Below are positions 27,250 to 41,603 of a stretch of DNA of 64,000 nt, piece by piece. Each line of letters opens with the position of its first letter. The first letter of the stretch is position 1. The notes below the pieces were generated by a model. The model was not told the DNA's origin. It did no database searches and worked only from the letters and a program-made list of their open reading frames with translations. The position numbers were made by a program, and so were the translations under genes. This DNA comes from Phycisphaerae bacterium RAS2 (lineage in GTDB: Bacteria; Planctomycetota; Phycisphaerae; UBA1845; UTPLA1): positions 1,240,001 to 1,304,000 of the forward strand of contig CP036352.1 of NCBI GenBank assembly GCA_007753915.1, in the 5' to 3' direction.

Positions 27250-28545
27250 ATGTCGCCCATGACCGTGGCGGACGACCATCTCGCAACGAACCTCGCGCCG
27301 ATGCGACGGCTGTTGCTCGTCTCCTACTGGTATCCGCCGGCGATTGGCGCCGCGGCCGAGCGGATCGGCGCCTTCGCACGGTTTCTGCCCCGCCACGGTT
27401 GGAGCGTCGAGGTCTTGACCGCCCGCCGGACGACACCACCGCGCGACCTGCCGTCCGTAGCGGTGCATTCAGTGGACGATCCGCGTGGCGGGGGGATCGA
27501 ATCGTTTCCCGATTACGACCCGCGCCGTGTGAAGCGGCCGGGCCTCAAACGATTCCTCCGCGACTTTATTTTTCCCGACCGTTTTCGAGGCTGGATGCGC
27601 GCGGCGGAAGCATCGCATGCATGGCGGACGCCGTCGTCCCCAATTGACGCCGTGCTCGCGTCGTTTCCACCGGCCAGCGCGGCGTGGCTGGGGCTGCGGG
27701 TGCAACGCGCGAGCGGCGCGCCGTTTTTCCTCGACATGCGCGACACATGGTTCGGCCCGGGCGGCTACGAGCCGCTGTATTCCTTCGCGAAGAATCGCCA
27801 TAAGTCGCTTTACACGGAATGCATTCGCGCCGCGGCCGGAATCGTCGCCGTGTCGGACACCATGGCAGAAGACATCCTTCGTGAATTCGCCCTGCCGCCC
27901 GAGCGCGTAACCGTCATTCCAAATGGGTTCGACCCAGCGTTGCCGCCGATGCCGCCTCCGCCCGCGCCGCCGTCGGCGGATGGTGAGATGGTCCTCGCCC
28001 ATGTCGGAACGGTCATCGCGCGCAATCGGCCGGAGTTGTTCCTCGATTCGCTCCGCGCTTTGCCGCCGGATGTCGCGCGCAGCGTTCGCGTGCGGTTCGT
28101 CGGCAACCTTTCACGGGATTACCTCCGCGACATGGGGCTGGATCAACGCGTCGAAGCCACGGGCCTGTTGCCGTGCGAACAGGCGTGGAAGCAGATCGCC
28201 GGCGCTCATGCGTTGCTGCTGCTCACCGGGCGCGAGGCCGGACATTGGACCCCGCGCGCCAAGGTGTTTGAATACCTCGCGGCCCGTCGGCCGATCCTCT
28301 GCCTTGAAGAAGCGCCGGGCAGTTGTGATTATCGCCTGCTGTCGTCGATCGCGCCGGACCGTTCGTTTCGCGCGGGGCTGGGCGATTCAGCCGGTCTTGC
28401 TGCAGCCCTCAAGCAGGTTCGCGCGTTCTGCGAAGCCGGAGCCGGCGCCGACCTTGGCCCGCCCCCCGCGATGGAATCGCACAGTCGCGAGGTGCATGCG
28501 GCCCGACTCTCGGAGTTCCTTCGAGCACGGATGCCCACCCGGTAG
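27250..28545 (+). CDS. GT4 family glycosyltransferase
   Basis: This is a GT-B fold glycosyltransferase of family 4. The N-domain begins MRRLLLVSYWYPPAIGAAAERIGAFARFLPRHGWSVEVLTARR. The acceptor domain shows FFLDMRDTWFGPGG. The nucleotide-sugar domain contains VIPNGFDPAL, MVLAHVGTVIARNRPELFLDSL and LTGREAGHWTPRAKVFEYLAARRPILCL (a variant of the donor-binding EX7E region). The start is either 27250 or the internal ATG at 27301, neither with a strong ribosome site. It is divergent from the broken GT4 gene and forms the end of the asnB cluster. Confidence 0.85.
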   Translation: MSPMTVADDHLATNLAPMRRLLLVSYWYPPAIGAAAERIGAFARFLPRHGWSVEVLTARRTTPPRDLPSVAVHSVDDPRGGGIESFPDYDPRRVKRPGLKRFLRDFIFPDRFRGWMRAAEASHAWRTPSSPIDAVLASFPPASAAWLGLRVQRASGAPFFLDMRDTWFGPGGYEPLYSFAKNRHKSLYTECIRAAAGIVAVSDTMAEDILREFALPPERVTVIPNGFDPALPPMPPPPAPPSADGEMVLAHVGTVIARNRPELFLDSLRALPPDVARSVRVRFVGNLSRDYLRDMGLDQRVEATGLLPCEQAWKQIAGAHALLLLTGREAGHWTPRAKVFEYLAARRPILCLEEAPGSCDYRLLSSIAPDRSFRAGLGDSAGLAAALKQVRAFCEAGAGADLGPPPAMESHSREVHAARLSEFLRARMPTR

Positions 28546-28847
28546 CTCACGCAGGCGAGAATGCGGTGAACCCCATTTCCAACATTGATAGCGCGGATGC
28601 ACGGCAATGCAGGCCGCCCGGCCGCGTTCTTCAATCGGTTGGCTGCACGCAGAGCGCCGATACCGGAAAGAGCGCGATGAATCCGCCCGGCCGCACGCGG
28701 CTTGCGAGATTCGAGACCGCCGGCGCTTGAAATTCGACACGGCCGGCCGCACTATTCCCCGGTGAGGCGCGGTCGAACGAGCGAAACGGGTTTCGCTCGA
28801 AGTCTCTTGGACTGCCTGATGCCGACGACACGGAGGTAGACTCGGCT
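28546..28847. other. 302-base intergenic stretch, nothing recognised
   Basis: No open reading frame, RNA gene or strong hairpin was found here. A GGAGGT ribosome site ahead of the next gene lies at its right end. Confidence 0.5.
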
Positions 28848-30296
28848 TTGCCCCCCTCGCCCGTTCGCATTCCGCGATACTCGTTTCTCGCCATCGCGTT
28901 GCTGCTTGCGCTGCCGGCGGTGGCTCGCGCGCAGATGGGTTTGAATCAACCGGGCGGGACCAGTTCATCGTTCATTGAACGCCAGCGGTCACTCGAGCGG
29001 GAGAATCAGCGGAGGTATCAGGAAGCCCTTCCGCTCTCACAGAAGTTTCGCCTCGATTATGGCGGCTGGTTCAACTCGTACTTCTTCCTCTTTGACGACG
29101 GCTTCAACAGCAGCCGCACGCTCCGCCAGAACGAGCTGCGCGTCTGGACCTCGTTCACGGCCGACCGCGGCATTCACGAGGGTTACCTGCGCGTCCGCGC
29201 CACATACTTCGACTGGAACCACGGCGACTCGTTCACGCCGAATGAGGACGATCTCGATGGGCCGAACCTTGAGCGCGGCTGGTATCAGTTCGATGTCGCC
29301 AAGGCGCTGCGCCTCAACACGGAATCCAATGCGCCGTTTGAATTGAAGGTCAAGGTCGGCCGCGACCTCGTGTACATCGGCACCGGCTACGCCCTCGATG
29401 TCCCGCTGGATCACGTGCAGTTGCAGGGCGAATGGCTCGATTTTGAAACGACGCTGCTCTACGGCCGAATGCCCGCCAGCACCGAGAACATCGACCGCAG
29501 CCGTCCCGTGTCGGACCATTCCGACCGGCAGTTCTGGATCGTGCAGACGAAGTACAAGGGTTGGGACAAGCACGAGCCGTTTGCGTACGCAGCGTTTCAG
29601 GACGACGACACGCGCGAGGACCCGCCGAACTACCTTCAGAACTATCGGTACGACTCGCAGTACTACGGTTTCGGCTCGACCGGTCAGATTATTGACAACC
29701 TAAGATATCTGTCCGAGTGGGTCATCGAGCGCGGCGAGAGCTACGGCAACCGCCGGTTCATGTTCACCGACGAGATCAAGGCATGGGGCTTCGATCATCG
29801 GCTCGATTATTACTTCCGCCATCGCACCAAGCCCGTCGTCTCGGCCGAGTACATGTTCGCCAGCGGCGATTCCAACCGGCTGGGCAGTCCCACCAATGCC
29901 GTCGGCGGCAACCGCAACGACACCGTCGATCGCGGTTTCAACGGCTTCGGCTTCCGCGACACGGGTATCTCGTTCTCGCCGCGCAACTCCAACCTGCACG
30001 CCTGGCGGCTGGGCGGTTCGTTTCGCCCGCTGCCGACCATCGAGGCGACACGCGAGCTGGAACTCGGCACCGATTACTACCTCTACTACAAGCATCGATC
30101 CGTGGCCGCCGTCAGCGACGTACTCGCCGATCAGCAGAGCGGCTACCTCGGCTGGGAAATGGATTACTACGCGAACTGGCGTATTTGGAGCGACCTGGCG
30201 TGGACCGTGCGATTCGGCACGTTCTTCCCCGGCGATGCTTTTTCGGACCGCACCACTCGGACCTTTCTCCTGACGGGTATTACATGGTCCTTCTGA
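28848..30296 (+). CDS. Alginate-export-like outer-membrane beta-barrel protein
   Basis: The 482-aa product has a signal peptide (RYSFLAIALLLALPAVARAQ) and a beta-barrel of the alginate export (AlgE-like) type. Alternating aromatic strands run throughout (LDYGGWFNSYFFLFDDGFN, NELRVWTSFTADRGIHEGYLRVRATYFDWNHGD, LELGTDYYLYYKHRS), with an arginine-rich pore lining, and the chain ends in Phe (FLLTGITWSF), the usual barrel C-terminus. It would form a channel for a polyanionic polymer. The start is taken at TTG 28848, with GGAGGT upstream; the upstream ATG at 28819 runs into a stop. Its place beside glycosyltransferases fits polysaccharide export. Confidence 0.85.
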   Translation: MPPSPVRIPRYSFLAIALLLALPAVARAQMGLNQPGGTSSSFIERQRSLERENQRRYQEALPLSQKFRLDYGGWFNSYFFLFDDGFNSSRTLRQNELRVWTSFTADRGIHEGYLRVRATYFDWNHGDSFTPNEDDLDGPNLERGWYQFDVAKALRLNTESNAPFELKVKVGRDLVYIGTGYALDVPLDHVQLQGEWLDFETTLLYGRMPASTENIDRSRPVSDHSDRQFWIVQTKYKGWDKHEPFAYAAFQDDDTREDPPNYLQNYRYDSQYYGFGSTGQIIDNLRYLSEWVIERGESYGNRRFMFTDEIKAWGFDHRLDYYFRHRTKPVVSAEYMFASGDSNRLGSPTNAVGGNRNDTVDRGFNGFGFRDTGISFSPRNSNLHAWRLGGSFRPLPTIEATRELELGTDYYLYYKHRSVAAVSDVLADQQSGYLGWEMDYYANWRIWSDLAWTVRFGTFFPGDAFSDRTTRTFLLTGITWSF

Positions 30297-33144: not shown

Positions 33145-34704
33145 TCAGCGGCCTTGGCCGCTTCGCGCGCGGGCGATCAGATCGGTCGTGCTGCGGCCCT
33201 CGAGCAGCGGGACGAAAACCACGCGGCCTCCGTGTTTTTCGACAACATCCTGTCCGGCGACCGGCTTGCCCTTCCAGTCGGCCCCTTTGACCAGCACGTT
33301 GGGCACGATGGATTCAATCAAGTGCTGCGGCGTCGGTTCGTCGAAGATCACGATGTAATCGACGTCGGCCAGCGCCGCCAGCACCGTCGCACGGTCGGAC
33401 TGATTCACGATCGGGCGATCCGGCGCCTTTTCCAGTGACCGGACCGATGCGTCGGAGTTGAGGCCGATCACGAGGACATCGGCATGCTGCTTGGCTGCCG
33501 CAAACGTGGCGACGTGGCCGGGGTGCAGCAGATCGAAGCAGCCGTTGGTGAAGGCGATGGTCTCGCCGCGCGATCGGCGGCGCGCCAGCTCGGGTTTGAG
33601 TTGCTCAAGCGTGCGGACCTTACCGAGCTGGCGATGATGTTCGAGCAGAATTTCGCCGAGGATCTCGTCCCGCGTGATCGGCACGCAGCCGAACTTCTCG
33701 ACTTCCAGCCCGCCGGCGACGTTTGCGATGGCCACGGCCTCAAGCTGTGACGCCCCCGCGGCCAAAGCGACGGCCAGCGCCGCCAGGACTTCATCGCCCG
33801 CGCCGGTCACGTCGTACACGTCGCGCGCTCGCGTGGGAACATGCTGGAAAGAACCGTCGGGACCGATCAGTGCCGCGCCTTCGGCATCGAGCGTGACGCA
33901 GACCGATTCGGTGCAGCAGGCCTTGCGGATTGCCGCGGTGTGTTCGCGGACGGCATCAATCGTCCGCAATTGCAGCCCGGACGCCTTTTCGGTTTCGGTG
34001 CGGTTGGGCGTCATGAGCGTCGCGCCGGCGTAACGCGAGTAGTCGTGGATGCTGGCTGGGTCAATCAGCACGGGGATGCCGTGCTGTTTTGCCAGCGCAA
34101 TGGCGCGACGGGCGAGGTCGGCCGTGACGACGCCCTTGTTGTAATCCTCGATGCAAAGAACGTGACACCTGGCGAGATCGCGCTCGATCGCGGCAAATAG
34201 CTCGGCTGCCGCCGGCGTGCTCAAGGGCGCCGAGGATTCGTCATCGATGCGAATGAGCTGCTGGCGATGGCGATGCTGCGCGAGGCCCACGAGGCGTGTC
34301 TTGCGCGTCGTCGGCCGCGATGGATCTGCAATGAGTCCGGCGACCTGGGCGCCGACACCGGTCAGAAGCTCGCGCAGCCGGTCACCGTCGGAGTCGCTCC
34401 CGGTGACGCCGACGCACACCGCCTGGGCGCCCAGTGCTCGAATGTCCGCGACGACCGATCCGGCCCCGCCCAGTGCGTCCTCCTGTCGCACGACACGCAG
34501 AACAGGAACCGGGGCCTCGGGGCTGATCCGTTCGGCGTCGCCATAGAGATAGCGGTCGATCATGTAGTCGCCGAGGACCATGACCCGGGCGTCGGCGGAT
34601 TTTCCGAGGATTTCACAGAGCCGCTCCCATTGGACCGGTCCGGTTTGAGCGGCCGCCTGGGAGTGCTGGGATTCGTCAGCAACACGTTTCGGGGAGCTCG
34701 GCAT
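33145..34704 (-). CDS. hldE: Bifunctional heptose-7-phosphate kinase / ADP-heptose synthase HldE
   Basis: HldE carries two steps of ADP-heptose synthesis for LPS core. The N-terminal ribokinase-like domain (about 20-345) has MVLGDYMIDRYLYGDAERISPEAPVPVL and the active-site AGDEVLAALAVALAAG. The C-terminal nucleotidyltransferase domain (from about 370) has FTNGCFDLLHPGHVATFAAAKQHADVLVIGLNSDASVR and a final RSTTDLI. The 519-aa length is a little longer than the Escherichia coli enzyme because of an N-terminal extension. With waaA further on, it indicates a heptose- and KDO-containing outer membrane. Confidence 0.93.
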   Translation of the reverse strand: MPSSPKRVADESQHSQAAAQTGPVQWERLCEILGKSADARVMVLGDYMIDRYLYGDAERISPEAPVPVLRVVRQEDALGGAGSVVADIRALGAQAVCVGVTGSDSDGDRLRELLTGVGAQVAGLIADPSRPTTRKTRLVGLAQHRHRQQLIRIDDESSAPLSTPAAAELFAAIERDLARCHVLCIEDYNKGVVTADLARRAIALAKQHGIPVLIDPASIHDYSRYAGATLMTPNRTETEKASGLQLRTIDAVREHTAAIRKACCTESVCVTLDAEGAALIGPDGSFQHVPTRARDVYDVTGAGDEVLAALAVALAAGASQLEAVAIANVAGGLEVEKFGCVPITRDEILGEILLEHHRQLGKVRTLEQLKPELARRRSRGETIAFTNGCFDLLHPGHVATFAAAKQHADVLVIGLNSDASVRSLEKAPDRPIVNQSDRATVLAALADVDYIVIFDEPTPQHLIESIVPNVLVKGADWKGKPVAGQDVVEKHGGRVVFVPLLEGRSTTDLIARARSGQGR

Positions 34705-35075: not shown

Positions 35076-36458
35076 ATGAGGATCATCGCCGTCGCCAACC
35101 AGAAGGGTGGCTGTGGAAAGACGACAATCATCATCAATCTCGGCGCGTGCCTGGCGCGCGAGGGATATCGCACGCTGGCGGTGGACCTGGACCCGCAGGG
35201 GCATTGCGCGCTGGGGCTGGCGGTGCCCGAGGAACAGATTGAGACAAGCGTAACTGATGCGCTGCTGCTGGAAGACGACCAGCCGCCGATGGAATTGAGC
35301 CGCATCACGTGGCAGATTTCCAGCAACTTCGATCTCGTGCCGTCCAAGACGGATCTGGCGACGCTGGAACAGCGGCTGGCGGGCGTGCCGAATCGCGAGC
35401 ACCGACTGCGGCGGCTGCTGGAGCCGGCGGCCGAAAAATATGATTTTGTATTGATCGACAGTCCGCCGACGGTCGGCTTCCTGACGCAGAGCGCCCTGCA
35501 CACCGCCGACGAGATCATCGTTCCGGTTGATACGGGTTATTTCTCCCTGCATGGGCTCTCCAAGCAGCTCGACACGATCCGGTCGATCCGCGCCGAAAGC
35601 GGCCGCAAGGTGGCGGTGCGCATCCTGGCGAACCTGTACGACGTGCGCACAAAGCTGGGCCGCGAGATTCTCGCCGAGCTTCGCAAGCGGCACGGCGACG
35701 CGATGTATACGAGCTTCATCAACTTCAACACCAAGCTGAAAGAGAGCACCAGCCTGGGCCAGCCGATCACGGAATACGACCCGGCCAGCGCGGGCTGCAA
35801 GGACTTTCAACGGCTGGCGAAAGAAGTCGGCTCGATGGGGGCGGGGCCGGCGTTCTCGCTCACGCAGCCAGCCATCGCAACCGCGGCGGTGGAGCGCATC
35901 GATGCGGCGCGCGCCGGTTCATCGCGGGAACTGGTCGCCGTCGGTGCGGGTGAAGATGAGGCGGATCGTCCGGTGTCGGCGAAGGTTCCGGGGGTTGCCG
36001 CGGCGGTTAGCGGAAAGAGTGGCAAGCCCGACGATGCGCTGCTGAAACGTGCCGAAGCGCTGGCAGCGGATGCCAATCGATTGCTGGCGACGTCGCAAAC
36101 GCTGCTGGGCCCGTCGCGCTCGAACGGCGGCAGCCGCGCTGCCGCGCCGACGCCCGCGGAAACGCAACGAAAAATCGACTTCATTTACGGGCCGCGCGCC
36201 GTGGAAGACGGCGTCATTTTCACGGTTCGCGCCGATCGCGCGTTGTCGGTGCGGTTGGCGGGTGATTTCAACGACTGGAACCCGGGGCGGACACCGCTCG
36301 TGCCGATGGCCGACGGCATGTTTCAGGTGAAACTCCCGCTCGCCCCGGGTCGCTATCGCTATCGGTATGTGATCGACGGCCGCTGGGTGAGCGACCCCGG
36401 CAACGCGCACATGGAGCGCAATCCGTACGGCGAGATGGATAGCGTGGTGATGGTGTGA
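35076..36458 (+). CDS. ParA-type ATPase fused to a CBM48/AMPK-beta glycogen-binding domain
   Basis: The first 250 residues are a ParA/MinD ATPase with the deviant Walker A loop QKGGCGKTT (residues 9-17), the switch region VDLDPQGHCALG and the Asp box FVLIDSPPTVGF, as used for partitioning DNA or large cargo. A linker of about 110 residues, Ala/Pro-rich, follows. Residues 365-460 are an early-set CBM48 (AMPK beta/isoamylase N-terminal) domain, with GVIFTV...ALSVRLAGDFNDWNPGRTPLVPM and APGRYRYRYVIDGRWVSDP. This pairing of a cargo-positioning ATPase with a glycogen-binding module is unusual. No parB or parS-like site is adjacent. Glycogen positioning is inference only. Confidence 0.88.
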   Translation: MRIIAVANQKGGCGKTTIIINLGACLAREGYRTLAVDLDPQGHCALGLAVPEEQIETSVTDALLLEDDQPPMELSRITWQISSNFDLVPSKTDLATLEQRLAGVPNREHRLRRLLEPAAEKYDFVLIDSPPTVGFLTQSALHTADEIIVPVDTGYFSLHGLSKQLDTIRSIRAESGRKVAVRILANLYDVRTKLGREILAELRKRHGDAMYTSFINFNTKLKESTSLGQPITEYDPASAGCKDFQRLAKEVGSMGAGPAFSLTQPAIATAAVERIDAARAGSSRELVAVGAGEDEADRPVSAKVPGVAAAVSGKSGKPDDALLKRAEALAADANRLLATSQTLLGPSRSNGGSRAAAPTPAETQRKIDFIYGPRAVEDGVIFTVRADRALSVRLAGDFNDWNPGRTPLVPMADGMFQVKLPLAPGRYRYRYVIDGRWVSDPGNAHMERNPYGEMDSVVMV

Positions 36459-37747: not shown

Positions 37748-38332
37748 ATGTCGGTAGCCGTTGACCGCAAGATTGAGATTCATCGCGCGGCGTGCCGGCT
37801 GTTTCGCGAGAAGGGTTTCGCGGGGACGAGCGTTCGCGAAATCGCCGAGCAGGTCGGAATATTAGGCGGTAGTCTTTATTCGCACATTGCCGGCAAGGAT
37901 GATCTGCTTTGGGAGATCCTGGCGGCATCGGCCGACCGATTCTTCGCGGCGCTGCAGCCGATCGTTGCGGCGGATCGCGGAACGATGCAGAAGCTTCGCG
38001 CGGCAATCGTCGCGCACGTCGGCGTGATCACGGGCGATCTGGACGCCGCGGCGGTTTATACGTTTGAGTGGCGGCACCTTCCGGAGGATCGTCGGGCGGC
38101 CTTCACGGCGCGGCGCGATGACTACGAGCGATTGTTTCGCGGGCTGGTCGAGCAAGCGATGCGCGAGCGGTTCATCGGTGCGAGCAGCGCCGCCAGCGCG
38201 ACGCTGTTCATCCTGTCGGCGCTGAACTGGGTGTCGGTGTGGTACCGGCCGGACGGGCCGATGAGCGGCGAGGATGTCGGCACGATGCTGGCGGATTATC
38301 TGTTTGAAGGGTTGAAACGCCGGACGGCGTAA
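37748..38332 (+). CDS. TetR family transcriptional regulator, likely of the paa operon
   Basis: The 194-aa product has a TetR N-terminal helix-turn-helix ([40 protein letters not shown], about 20-58) and a ligand-binding C-terminal domain. It sits directly upstream of paaA and is followed by it after 46 bases, so it probably regulates phenylacetate catabolism and senses a CoA thioester, as PaaR proteins do. The palindrome at 37650-37663 is the probable binding site. The ATG follows GGGAG. Confidence 0.9.
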
Positions 38333-38343
38333 ATGGCCAAGGA

Positions 38344-38361
38344 GGTCCGCACAAGCGGACC
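38344..38361 (+). promoter_or_regulatory. Intercistronic hairpin ahead of paaA
   Basis: GGTCCGC-ACAA-GCGGACC forms a 7-bp stem with a 4-base loop between the TetR stop and paaA. There is no T-run after it, so it is not a classic terminator. It could be a processing or attenuation element that sets different levels of regulator and enzyme. Confidence 0.45.
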
Positions 38362-38378
38362 CAATGCAGGAGTGCGTC

Positions 38379-39392
38379 ATGGTGAGACTGGCGGACAACA
38401 CAGCGGGCTGGGGCGACAAGCCGGGCGACCCGGGATACGAGGATCGCTTGGCGAAGTTTGAGGCCCGTGTCGCGCGGGGCGACAAGGTCGAGCCGGGCGA
38501 CTGGATGCCCAATGACTATCGCCAGCAGCTGATCCGGCTGATTCACGTGCACGCCAACAGCGAGATTTGCGGTGCGCTGCCCGAGGGCACGTGGATTCCG
38601 CACGCGCCGACGTTCAAGCGCAAGCTCGCCCTGTGCGCGAAGGTGCAGGATGAGGTCGGCCACGGGCAACTGCTCTATCGCGCCGCCGAGACGCTGGGCA
38701 AGCCGCGTGAGGAGATGATTGACGAACTCATCAGTGGCAAGGCGAAATACTCAAACGTCTTTCACTATCCCGCCGAGACCTGGGCCGATGTCTGCGTGAT
38801 TGCCTGGCTGATCGATGCGGCGGCAATCGTCAATCAGAAGATGATGGCCGACGGGTCGTATGGGCCGTACGGCCGGGCGCTGCGGCGGATTTGCTACGAA
38901 GAAGCGTTTCACCTGACGCACGGGTACGACATGTGCATCTCGATGGCGACGGGGACGAAGCTCCAGCGCGAGATGCTGCAGGACGCCGTGAATCGCTGGT
39001 GGAAGCCGATCATGATGTTTCACGGGCCGGCGGACAAGGAAAGCACGCACACCGCGCAGCTGATGAAATGGAAGATCAAACTTAAGACAAACGACGAACA
39101 GCGGCAGGAGTTTCTGCGGAAGTACCTGCCGAAGATGTTCAACCTCGGGCTGACCGTGCCGGCCGAGTGGGAACTGCGATTCGACGAGAAGAGCCGCACG
39201 TGGCTGTACAACGAGCCGGATTGGGAAGAATTCAAAACCGTGGTGCGCGGCAACGGGCCGGTCAGCTCGCAGCGATTGGAGACGCGGCGCTTGTCTCACG
39301 AGCACGGTCGCTGGGTGCGCGAGGCGCTGACGGCGGCAGCGGCCGGGAAGCGTGCGCCGCTACCACCGACGGCCGTGGGGGCGGCGAGCTGA
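38379..39392 (+). CDS. paaA: Phenylacetyl-CoA epoxidase subunit PaaA (catalytic)
   Basis: PaaA is the di-iron catalytic subunit of the ring-epoxidising multicomponent oxygenase acting on phenylacetyl-CoA. The 337-aa product has the ferritin-like helices with iron ligands in [16 protein letters not shown] and [16 protein letters not shown], plus [17 protein letters not shown] near the C-terminus. I chose the ATG at 38379 since CAGGAG lies 6 nt upstream; the ATG at 38364 would add 5 residues. It is the first enzyme gene of paaA-B-(bamE-like)-C-D. The ring-cleavage steps (paaG, paaZ, paaK) are not in the window. Confidence 0.95.
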
Positions 39393-39695
39393 ATGATGGA
39401 TTCGCAATGGAAAATCTTCGAGGTCTTTCACCAATCGGCGCGCGGCGAGCCGCACGTGCACGTCGGATCAGTCCACGCGCCGGACGGCGACACGGCGCTG
39501 ATGCTGGCGAAGGAGCAGTTCGGCCGGCGGCAGGCCTGCGTGAATATCTGGGTCGTTGCGGCGAGTGCCATTGTTGCGACATCGTATGATGACGCAGACA
39601 TGTTCGAACACGCGACCGACAAGAGCTATCGCGAAGCGTTTGGTTACGAGACGACGAAGCGGGCGAAGTTGGCGGGCGACGCGGAGGAGATTTAG
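39393..39695 (+). CDS. paaB: Phenylacetyl-CoA epoxidase subunit PaaB
   Basis: PaaB is a small structural subunit of the phenylacetyl-CoA epoxidase complex. The 100-aa product shows the PaaB pattern: WKIFEVFHQSARGEPHVHVGSVHAPDGDTALMLAKEQFGRRQACVNIWVVAASAIVATSYDD with the VWV-like core and ATDKSYREAFGYE. Its first ATG follows the paaA stop immediately (TGAATG), so it is translationally coupled. A second ATG at 39396 is also possible. Confidence 0.94.
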   Translation: MMDSQWKIFEVFHQSARGEPHVHVGSVHAPDGDTALMLAKEQFGRRQACVNIWVVAASAIVATSYDDADMFEHATDKSYREAFGYETTKRAKLAGDAEEI

Positions 39696-40055
39696 TTGAC
39701 AGCCCCCACCAAGAAAAGTCATGGCATTCGCGCGATCGCAATCATCATCGTAGGACTTGGTCTGGGTACTTTCTTCGTGGGATCCGTGAAGGAAGAGTGG
39801 CGTGCGCCGACGAGGTCGCAATGGGAGAAGGTTAAGGCCGGAGACGACGAGTTGGCAGTGCGAAACATATTAGGTGAACCGGTGCATTCGTATGAGCGTG
39901 TCACCGCGCCCGCGGACTACTACGTTTCAGGTTACGGCCGAAAGATCCGTCCAATTAGCGGGAAGGTTTTGATTTATCTCAAGACCGATTTGATCCTGTA
40001 CGTCTATCTTGATCAAAGCGGGCGAGTCGAAGAAACATTTGTTGCAGGGAGTTGA
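39696..40055 (+). CDS. BamE/SmpA-like small membrane-anchored protein inside the paa operon
   Basis: The product is 119 aa from a TTG that directly follows the paaB stop, overlapping the ribosome site of paaC. It has one N-terminal membrane segment or uncleaved signal (IRAIAIIIVGLGLGTFFVGSV) and a domain resembling BamE/SmpA: WEKVKAGDDELAVRNILGEPVHSYERV followed by beta strands (KVLIYLKTDLILYVYLDQSGRVEETF). BamE-like domains normally have a role in envelope assembly and have no known place in phenylacetate catabolism. The gene is AT-richer than its neighbours, which hints at insertion into the operon. Confidence 0.7.
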   Translation: MTAPTKKSHGIRAIAIIIVGLGLGTFFVGSVKEEWRAPTRSQWEKVKAGDDELAVRNILGEPVHSYERVTAPADYYVSGYGRKIRPISGKVLIYLKTDLILYVYLDQSGRVEETFVAGS

Positions 40056-40063
40056 GAAATCGC

Positions 40064-40921
40064 ATGGCTACCACGACGCAGCCGACACAGATGACCGGCG
40101 CAACGAATGGCGCGGTTATCGATCTGGTCTACCGCCTCGGCGACGACTGCCTCATCATCGGCCATCGCAATTCCGAATGGACGGGGCTGGGGCCGATCCT
40201 GGAGGAGGACATCGCGTTTTCGTCGATGGCGCAGGATCAGATGGGCCATGCGCAGGCGCTGTATTCGTTGCTGCACACGCTGGGCGAGCCGGAGCCGGAT
40301 CATCTGGCATTTCTGCGCGAAGCGAAGGACTTTCGATGCTGCCGGTTTGTGGCGTTGGAGCCGTTTGGCGAGGCGGGCAGCGGCGCATCGGAGGATTTGC
40401 GGAACAACCCGGATCGTGACAAATTGCTGACGCAAGGTGATTGGTCGTTGTCGCTGATTCGCCAGTTTCTGTTCGCCGAGGCGTGGGCGATTCGCCTCGC
40501 GGCGCTGTCGGAGAGTTCATTTGAGCCGCTGGCGGAAATGGCGCGAAAGTTTCGCGGCGAGGTCAAGTATCACACGATGCACGGTCGCATCTGGATTGAG
40601 CGACTGGGCCGGGCTGATGCCGACGCGCGGCAGCGCGTGCAAGCAGCGATCCATTTGCTGTGGCCCGCGGCGCTGGGCATGTTCGAACCGACAACGCACG
40701 ATGCGGGCCTCGCGCGAGCGGGCGTCTGCCCAAGTGAAGCGGAGGCATGCCGGAAATGGCAGACGGATGTCACGGGGCTGCTCGCGGAAGCGGGATTCAC
40801 CTGGCCGCGCGATGCGAAGCCGGTGGTCGGCGGTCGCGCGGGGAATCATGGACCGGAGCTGGCGCGCCTGCTGGCGTCGATGCAGAAGGTATATCGCCTC
40901 GCGCCGGGGGCGACGTGGTGA
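40064..40921 (+). CDS. paaC: Phenylacetyl-CoA epoxidase subunit PaaC
   Basis: PaaC is the structural ferritin-like partner of PaaA, lacking functional iron ligands. The 285-aa product shows the PaaC signatures: VYRLGDDCLIIGHRNSEWTGLGPILEEDIAFSSMAQDQMGHAQALY, RQFLFAEAWAIRLAAL and RKFRGEVKYHTMHGRIWIERLG. I chose the ATG at 40064; the TTG at 40052 would add 4 residues. The intervening BamE-like gene separates it from paaB, whereas paaC normally directly follows. Confidence 0.94.
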   Translation: MATTTQPTQMTGATNGAVIDLVYRLGDDCLIIGHRNSEWTGLGPILEEDIAFSSMAQDQMGHAQALYSLLHTLGEPEPDHLAFLREAKDFRCCRFVALEPFGEAGSGASEDLRNNPDRDKLLTQGDWSLSLIRQFLFAEAWAIRLAALSESSFEPLAEMARKFRGEVKYHTMHGRIWIERLGRADADARQRVQAAIHLLWPAALGMFEPTTHDAGLARAGVCPSEAEACRKWQTDVTGLLAEAGFTWPRDAKPVVGGRAGNHGPELARLLASMQKVYRLAPGATW

Positions 40922-40940
40922 GGGTGCAGAGGAATGTCTC

Positions 40941-41065
40941 GAATTGCGAATTGCGAAGAGCGAAAGCTGGCGCATCGATCAGGTTCCCTCGGACTGCGAC
41001 GATTGACACGTTTAGCTTAGCGACCAGCGTCGACGCCCGCGTTTTCTGCATTCTCAATTCTTCAT
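40941..41065. repeat. GAATTGCGAATTGCG repeats between paaC and paaD
   Basis: The 175-base gap between paaC and paaD holds GAATTGCGAATTGCGAAGAGCG (40941-40966) and, near 41045-41065, TTCTGCATTCTCAATTCTTC, whose complement resembles the same dispersed unit. This places a repeat family inside an operon. No coding sequence or terminator was seen. Confidence 0.5.
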
Positions 41066-41096
41066 TCCACACTTCGGTATTCGCGGAGTGATCGCC

Positions 41097-41603
41097 ATGT
41101 CCGACGCACCGACAACCAACGAGCGGCTCGAATCCGTCTGGCGCGCCCTCGCGACGGTCAGCGATCCGGAAATACCGCCGCTCTCGGTCGTCGATCTCGG
41201 CGTGATTCCCGACGTGTTCATGGACGGCCGGACGGTTGTCGTGCAGATGACGCCGACGTTCGCGGGCTGCCCTGCGCTGGACGTGATGCGCAAGAACATC
41301 GCCGAGGCCGTCGGCCTGGCGGGCTTCGACGAGGTGCGTGTGGACGTGGTGTACGACCCGCCGTGGACGAGCGACCGAATCAGCGAGGCGGGCCGGGGGA
41401 AGCTCAAGGCGTTCGGCCTCGCGCCGCCGGGGAAGAACTGCGGCGGCGGCCGCGTGACGATGGAGTCGCTTTCACAGGCGGCGTGCCCGTTCTGCGATTC
41501 GCGCGACACGACGATGGAGTCGATGTTCGGGCCGACGCTGTGCCGGGCGATTCACTACTGCAACGCGTGCCGGCAGTCGTTTGAGCAGTTCAAGCCGGTG
41601 TAG
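41097..41603 (+). CDS. paaD: Phenylacetate catabolism protein PaaD (MIP18/SufT-like)
   Basis: PaaD assists assembly or Fe-S maturation of the epoxidase. The 168-aa product has the MIP18-like domain (ATVSDPEIPPLSVVDLGVIPDVF, with MTPTFAGCPALDVMRKNIAEAV) and the C-terminal zinc-binding cysteines CPFCDSRDTTM...CRAIHYCNACRQSF. The ATG at 41097 has GGAG about 10 nt upstream. The usual next gene paaE (the ferredoxin/flavin reductase) is absent; the following genes are DinB-like and unrelated. Confidence 0.94.
   Translation: MSDAPTTNERLESVWRALATVSDPEIPPLSVVDLGVIPDVFMDGRTVVVQMTPTFAGCPALDVMRKNIAEAVGLAGFDEVRVDVVYDPPWTSDRISEAGRGKLKAFGLAPPGKNCGGGRVTMESLSQAACPFCDSRDTTMESMFGPTLCRAIHYCNACRQSFEQFKPV

Follow-up and report, generated by a model that had tools for sequence, protein, structure and literature searches.

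The ParA-CBM48 fusion gene and its surroundings

The DNA analysed here (the window) is a 64,000 bp stretch of the genome of Phycisphaerae bacterium RAS2, which consists of a single contig of 4.32 Mb. At positions 35076–36458 on the forward strand lies a gene, delimited by its translation and by its orthologues, with an uninterrupted reading frame of 460 aa plus stop and the N-terminus MRIIAVANQKGGCGKTT. Its product has, in order, a Soj/ParA-type ATPase domain (residues 1–251; 35076–35828), a disordered linker with a helix conserved in the orthologue alignment (residues 320–343; 36033–36104), and a domain of the CBM48/AMPK-beta glycogen-binding type (residues 371–460; 36186–36455). An AlphaFold2 model, generated with 25 orthologues in the alignment, is well ordered throughout the ATPase and has pLDDT values of 95–97 in the CBM; confidence is low at residues 284–317 and 345–354, and between these lies the helix at 320–343, in which A333 and L336 are nearly invariant among the 25 orthologues. 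Both halves of the protein are genuine, as Pfam, matches to AMPK-beta, AlphaFold2 and Foldseek all agree. A scan for sigma-70 promoters and terminators gave no signal above chance, and a role in anti-phage defence was rejected, there being no meaningful PADLOC match.

The upstream neighbour, transcribed divergently and noted for context only, is hldE (heptose-7-P kinase/heptose-1-P adenylyltransferase; 33145–34704, reverse strand). Downstream are a methyltransferase-like gene on the opposite strand, a TetR regulator gene and an operon for a phenylacetate oxygenase, and no parB adjoins the fusion gene, as the original prediction had stated. We note that the TetR regulator and phenylacetyl-CoA oxygenase operon (37748–41603, forward strand), with PaaA/PaaC-like genes at 38364–39392 and 40052–40921 and a PaaD-like gene at 41088–41603, recur beside the fused ParA gene in several f1 members. 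A glycosyltransferase gene followed by one for an alginate-export-type outer-membrane protein (27250–30296, forward strand) suggests that a surface polysaccharide locus is present about 5 kb upstream. In families f1 and f6 the divergent gene upstream is hldE, which is also found near the fused gene at two more distant loci (L068 and L081); at other loci its place is taken by LpxK, Maf, a glycosyltransferase or a Polysacc_synt_2 enzyme. Alpha-glucan genes are not among the conserved neighbours of the fused ParA, the recurrent ones including LPS and surface-glycan genes.

The ATPase domain

The Pfam profile AAA_31 matches residues 1–177 with an E-value of 3.2e-48, above its curated cut-off, and phmmer aligns the ATPase domain with the ParA/Soj structures 8ray and 1wcv at E-values of 1e-45 to 1e-41. 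Soj/ParA structures are also the top Foldseek matches, with 32–39% identity in the alignments. The ParA-type ATPase originally proposed for residues 1–250, with an intact deviant Walker A motif KGGCGKTT (residues 10–17; 35103–35126), is borne out by AAA_31 and by the translation, and KGGCGKT (K10 to T16), D37, D39-P40-Q41 and D128-x-P130-P131 are invariant in 25 orthologues. The protein misses the cut-offs of TIGR03371 (BcsQ; 96.6 versus 157.85 bits) and NF041546 (ParA family partition ATPase; 107.9 versus 180 bits).

Two surface arginines are essential for DNA binding by Soj (PMC7229837). The region of the fusion protein that aligns with these DNA-contact residues is encoded by 35646–35735. 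Soj R189, which together with R218 we take to be the essential pair, is matched by R191, which is invariant among the orthologues, and R218 by K220, which is nearly so; the B. subtilis Soj sequence used in this comparison was checked for its length, 253 aa, and for Arg at both position 189 and position 218. With R191 kept and the second Soj arginine replaced by Lys, nucleoid binding by the fused ParA is predicted as likely.

The glycogen-binding-type domain

Two Pfam profiles match the C-terminus, AMPK1_CBM at residues 391–458 (E = 3.5e-9; 37.2 bits, cut-off 26.8) and CBM_48 at residues 372–451 (E = 3.9e-8; 34.0 bits, cut-off 22.4), and the C-terminal 96 residues by themselves match AMPK-beta glycogen-binding domains of known structure, as well as a GH13 pullulanase, with E-values of about 1e-6 to 1e-7. 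Profile comparison, on which the original prediction had staked its assignment of residues 365–460 to CBM48/AMPK-beta, thus confirms the domain, although its start is nearer to residue 372.

W100, K126 and W133 of AMPK-beta1 align with W401, R430 and W437 of the fusion protein, and N150 pairs with D455 when the same alignment register is extended; we take these four AMPK-beta1 residues to be the ones that contact glucan. Among 91 distinct CBM sequences W401 and R430 are present in all 91 and W437 in 90, and position 455 is Asn in 80 and Asp in nine. Mean column identity is 62%, and the glucan-contact columns are among the most conserved. The substitutions of Lys by Arg and, in the window copy, of Asn by Asp are conservative changes at AMPK-beta contact positions. 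Such conservation is the pattern expected of an alpha-glucan site, albeit one in which some of the columns may also be structural, and because the AMPK-beta contact residues are conserved, an alpha-glucan is a likely ligand.

Distribution and ancestry of the fusion

The fusion is found in a second genome of the window genus (94% identity), in several members of the window family (65–67%) and, at full length, across most Phycisphaerae families (about 42–50%). The two-domain architecture is therefore conserved in other planctomycetes, where the original prediction had suggested looking for it, and close relatives, in which its loss had been anticipated as a possible sign of misassembly, retain it. 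In families f4, f17, f19 and f27 and in most of f11 the matches are weaker ones to ordinary ParA proteins only, and the fused gene is apparently missing from them. Candidate fusions in four further genomes (G307, G396, G490 and G372) proved to be plain ParA proteins with no CBM.

Outside the Phycisphaerae, fused ParA proteins were found in a single MAG each of the Methylomirabilota (L084) and the Auribacterota (L085) and in another planctomycete lineage (L150), the phylum labels of L084 and L085 possibly stemming from binning error because their contigs are short. Confinement of the fusion to the window genus is ruled out by its class-wide presence and by these three other lineages. A branch supported at 100/99 in a tree built from 53 ParA domains has all 33 fused domains on the same side, and the fused clade takes in the Methylomirabilota, the Auribacterota and the second planctomycete lineage. 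This topology fits a single fusion event followed by descent and some transfer. The fused proteins make up a ParA subfamily that is real, old and class-wide, and whose members carry a domain of the glucan-binding type.

A co-oriented downstream gene in relatives

When the neighbourhoods of fused ParA genes were clustered, an undescribed gene family encoding proteins of roughly 400–870 aa was found directly downstream on the same strand. The original prediction had proposed a search for conserved neighbours and had missed this gene, which, using a shared N-terminal motif as guide, we recognised at 40 of the 70 loci with room to judge; all 40 copies are on the same strand as the fused ParA, 32 are within 120 bp of it, and 20 overlap it or lie within 20 bp. 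Unannotated examples, each on the strand of its fused ParA, are at L083:9201–10727, L059:9521–10969, L084:2440–3114 and L150:3109–4095, and the gene accompanies the fused ParA in the Methylomirabilota and Auribacterota as well as in L150. Twenty-nine of the 30 loci that lack it, all but L056, appear to fall in the window's own order (f1, f5, f6 and f8), an assignment made partly by tree and identity. The gene is absent from the window's family, from f6 and f8, and from most f5 loci. Neither a scan downstream of the window gene nor a search of the window genome with a profile of the partner family recovered it; relocation within that genome was rejected, as the profile finds only the genuine FlhG (L006), which adjoins FlhF, begins DQASRLR and retains KGGVGKT. 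The window protein is an orphan ParA.

The partner proteins match nothing of note in Pfam or NCBIfam, and nothing among the ParB families of these databases, including the CTP-binding and HTH domains; their likeness to ParB lies in the N-terminal motif alone. This motif, L/I-x-x-I/L-A/S-x-L-F/Y-L-S/T (LxxIAxLFLS), usually has an Arg or Lys in the few residues before it. The partners of L084 and L150 begin LGRGLQDVSHLFLTG and LGRGIEDFIGAFVSP, respectively; in both the helix opens with LGRG, close to LGRGL, which we take to be the start of ParB proteins. In an AlphaFold2 model of one partner the motif forms a helix; a disordered segment follows, then a MinD-like domain and, at the C-terminus, an alpha/beta domain. 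By structure comparison the middle domain resembles FlhG (Z = 12.8–12.9; rmsd 3.6–3.7 over 170–176 residues), and the C-terminal domain has a single match, the nuclease 2vld (Z = 8.7 over 101 residues). Because the comparison reached this domain only once, its nuclease-like fold is no more than suggestive. The FlhG-like domain is devoid of a P-loop in all 40 partners, the two GGKT strings that occur being in a C-terminal hairpin, and a simple PD-(D/E)xK pattern is found in no partner.

Partners of A/D ATPases are known to stimulate ATPase activity through a positively charged, disordered N-terminus (PMC10241942). With this precedent, and given the LGRG start in L084 and L150, we infer that the downstream gene encodes a candidate ATPase-activating partner of the fused ParA.

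Alpha-glucan enzymes

At the thresholds used, profiles for GlgA (TIGR02095, GT5), GlgB (TIGR01515) and GT3 glycogen synthase gave no match in the window genome, in which neither a known glycogen synthase nor a GH13 branching enzyme was detected; a canonical glycogen pathway was rejected on these profiles. The genome does encode an alpha-glucan phosphorylase of the TIGR02094, DUF3417 type, and an enzyme of GH13 type that contains CBM48-like repeats and, as read by eye, a likely signal peptide. The alpha-glucan enzymes of the Phycisphaerae are an unusual mix: TIGR02095 reaches an E-value of 1e-40 in only three of 248 genomes, phosphorylase is common (113 of 150 genomes), and GT3 synthase is present in some.

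A GT4 glycosyltransferase gene adjoins a GH57 gene at L167:6837–9424 (contig C1 of the window genome, about 3838836–3841423), and the same arrangement is present in G005 (L168). GT4 genes clustered with GH57 genes in some archaea have been reviewed as possible but unproven glycogen-synthesis genes (PMC11046441), and the pair is here a candidate for non-canonical alpha-glucan synthesis. With the phosphorylase, it could mean that some alpha-glucan is made or used in the window genome. We also note a stand-alone CBM48 protein of 102 aa (L005:1465–1773; C1 about 1141397) that is 43% identical to the fusion CBM over the matched part.

Phosphorylase is present in 70 of 84 genomes with a fused ParA and in 43 of 49 without, and there is thus no association, as counted by hand from the genomes listed and with presence of the fused ParA defined as a match to the window protein better than 1e-50. 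The placement of glycogen granules, raised in the original prediction, is favoured insofar as the CBM keeps its glucan-contact residues, but not by the enzymes, there being no GlgA, GlgB or GT3 synthase and no link to phosphorylase. Glycogen granules are no more than a plausible cargo.

Possible roles of the fused ParA

The reading we prefer, although held at somewhat less than even confidence, is that the protein is a Soj-type ParA of which an alpha-glucan-binding module has become a permanent part, and that its ATPase is triggered by the partner, with the result that material bound to glucan is either dispersed over the nucleoid or kept on it. An ATP-bound dimer would sit on the nucleoid, with the CBM48 domain tethering an alpha-glucan, whether a polymer, an oligomer or a glucan-bound enzyme complex. 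The N-terminal peptide of the partner, like that of ParB or McdB, would trigger ATP hydrolysis and release, and glucan-bound material would thereby be distributed across the nucleoid or retained there. Since the dedicated partner is missing from the window's family, either another protein would supply the trigger there or the fused ParA would work as a slower tether. In favour of this reading are the intact ATPase site, most of the Soj DNA-contact positions, the CBM48 site, the single clade and the co-oriented partner; against it are the lack of canonical glycogen enzymes, a phosphorylase that does not track the fusion, the absence of alpha-glucan genes from the conserved neighbours and the recurrence of LPS and surface-glycan genes among them, the families that lack the partner, and the Lys in place of the second Soj Arg.

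Alternatively, the CBM48 domain could be a sensor, as in AMPK, with alpha-glucan or maltodextrin reporting the carbon or energy state and gating a ParA cycle that controls an envelope or surface-polysaccharide process. This has an appreciable minority chance of being correct. The CBM is closest to AMPK-beta; alpha-glucan phosphorylase, GT4 and GH57 are present without a clear granule pathway; and BcsQ, a ParA relative that acts in cellulose secretion, is a sub-threshold match. The recurrence of HldE, LpxK, glycosyltransferases and the Polysacc_synt_2 enzyme as neighbours lends support to gating of an envelope process, although these genes are mostly divergent and vary between families, so that the linkage is loose, and no envelope protein is either fused or co-operonic.

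A reading that we find rather doubtful makes the CBM48-like domain a protein-binding module of the E-set type, or a binder of some other glycan, in a system that positions protein cargo via the partner. Such a role would suit both the retention of the domain in genomes with no detected canonical glycogen synthesis and the scaffold-like appearance of a partner with two degenerate enzyme-like domains, but the Trp, Lys/Arg and Asn of the glucan contact occupy some of the best-conserved columns in the 91 sequences. That the fused protein is a chromosome-partition ParA with an ornamental domain is improbable: its closest solved structures are indeed chromosomal Soj/ParA proteins, but a second ParA of the same genome (L002) groups with the unfused ParAs, parB is not among the adjoining genes, no ParB domain is detectable in the conserved partner, and the fused gene is apparently missing from whole Phycisphaerae families. 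That assembly joined two unrelated genes, or that they were read as one by chance, can be dismissed, since full-length orthologues occur in dozens of independent genomes and form one clade.

Returning to the preferred reading of a nucleoid-bound, glucan-tethering ParA, we consider that the fused ParA and its partner probably make up a system of two genes whose ligand is an alpha-glucan, and hold the function proposed for the subfamily with no more than moderate confidence. More tentatively, it may be a dedicated bacterial alpha-glucan positioning system, in which a nucleoid-binding ParA holds intracellular glucan, or a glucan-bound enzyme body, by its CBM48 domain and is driven by a partner that combines a ParB-like activating helix with dead FlhG-like and dead nuclease-like domains.

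ParA/MinD ATPases position DNA, carboxysomes, chemoreceptors and flagella. In the open literature searched, which takes in few subscription papers or preprints, no ParA bearing a CBM48 or glycogen-binding domain is described, in keeping with the original view that the architecture has no characterised example, and neither is a glucan cargo or a glucan-gated ParA. A class-wide ParA with a built-in CBM would add a storage polysaccharide to the cargoes that are actively placed, or would tie carbon reserves to the organisation of the nucleoid or envelope. The system is testable, as the N-terminal 30 residues of the partner predict a defined biochemical activity.

Comparison with known systems

The fused ParA shares with the Soj/ParA chromosome-partition ATPases (8ray, 1wcv, 2bek and 8jmj) the entire ATPase domain, the deviant Walker A motif and the R189 equivalent, but differs in its added linker helix and CBM48 domain, in having no adjoining ParB, in the Lys at the second DNA-contact Arg, and in forming a separate clade. 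With BcsQ it shares a ParA-type ATPase and a polysaccharide theme, although BcsQ has no CBM and no bcs genes were identified among the genes examined around the fusion gene. The CBM is of the same CBM48 family as the AMPK-beta glycogen-binding domain (1z0n, 2f15 and 4yef), with both Trp residues, the basic residue and the Asn/Asp in common, but is attached to a bacterial ParA rather than to a kinase subunit and has Arg at the K126 position. The partner has in its middle domain the fold of FlhG/FleN with a helix ahead of it, although it has no P-loop, carries LxxIAxLFLS in place of the DQAxxLR of FlhG, and has an extra C-terminal nuclease-like fold. McdA/McdB, ParC, PpfA and other cargo-positioning A/D ATPases have in common with it the ParA-type ATPase and, in relatives of the window protein, a candidate partner with a basic N-terminal peptide; the match to McdA spans only residues 1–172 (E about 1e-13). 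Unlike these systems, the fused ParA carries its ligand-binding domain on the ATPase itself.
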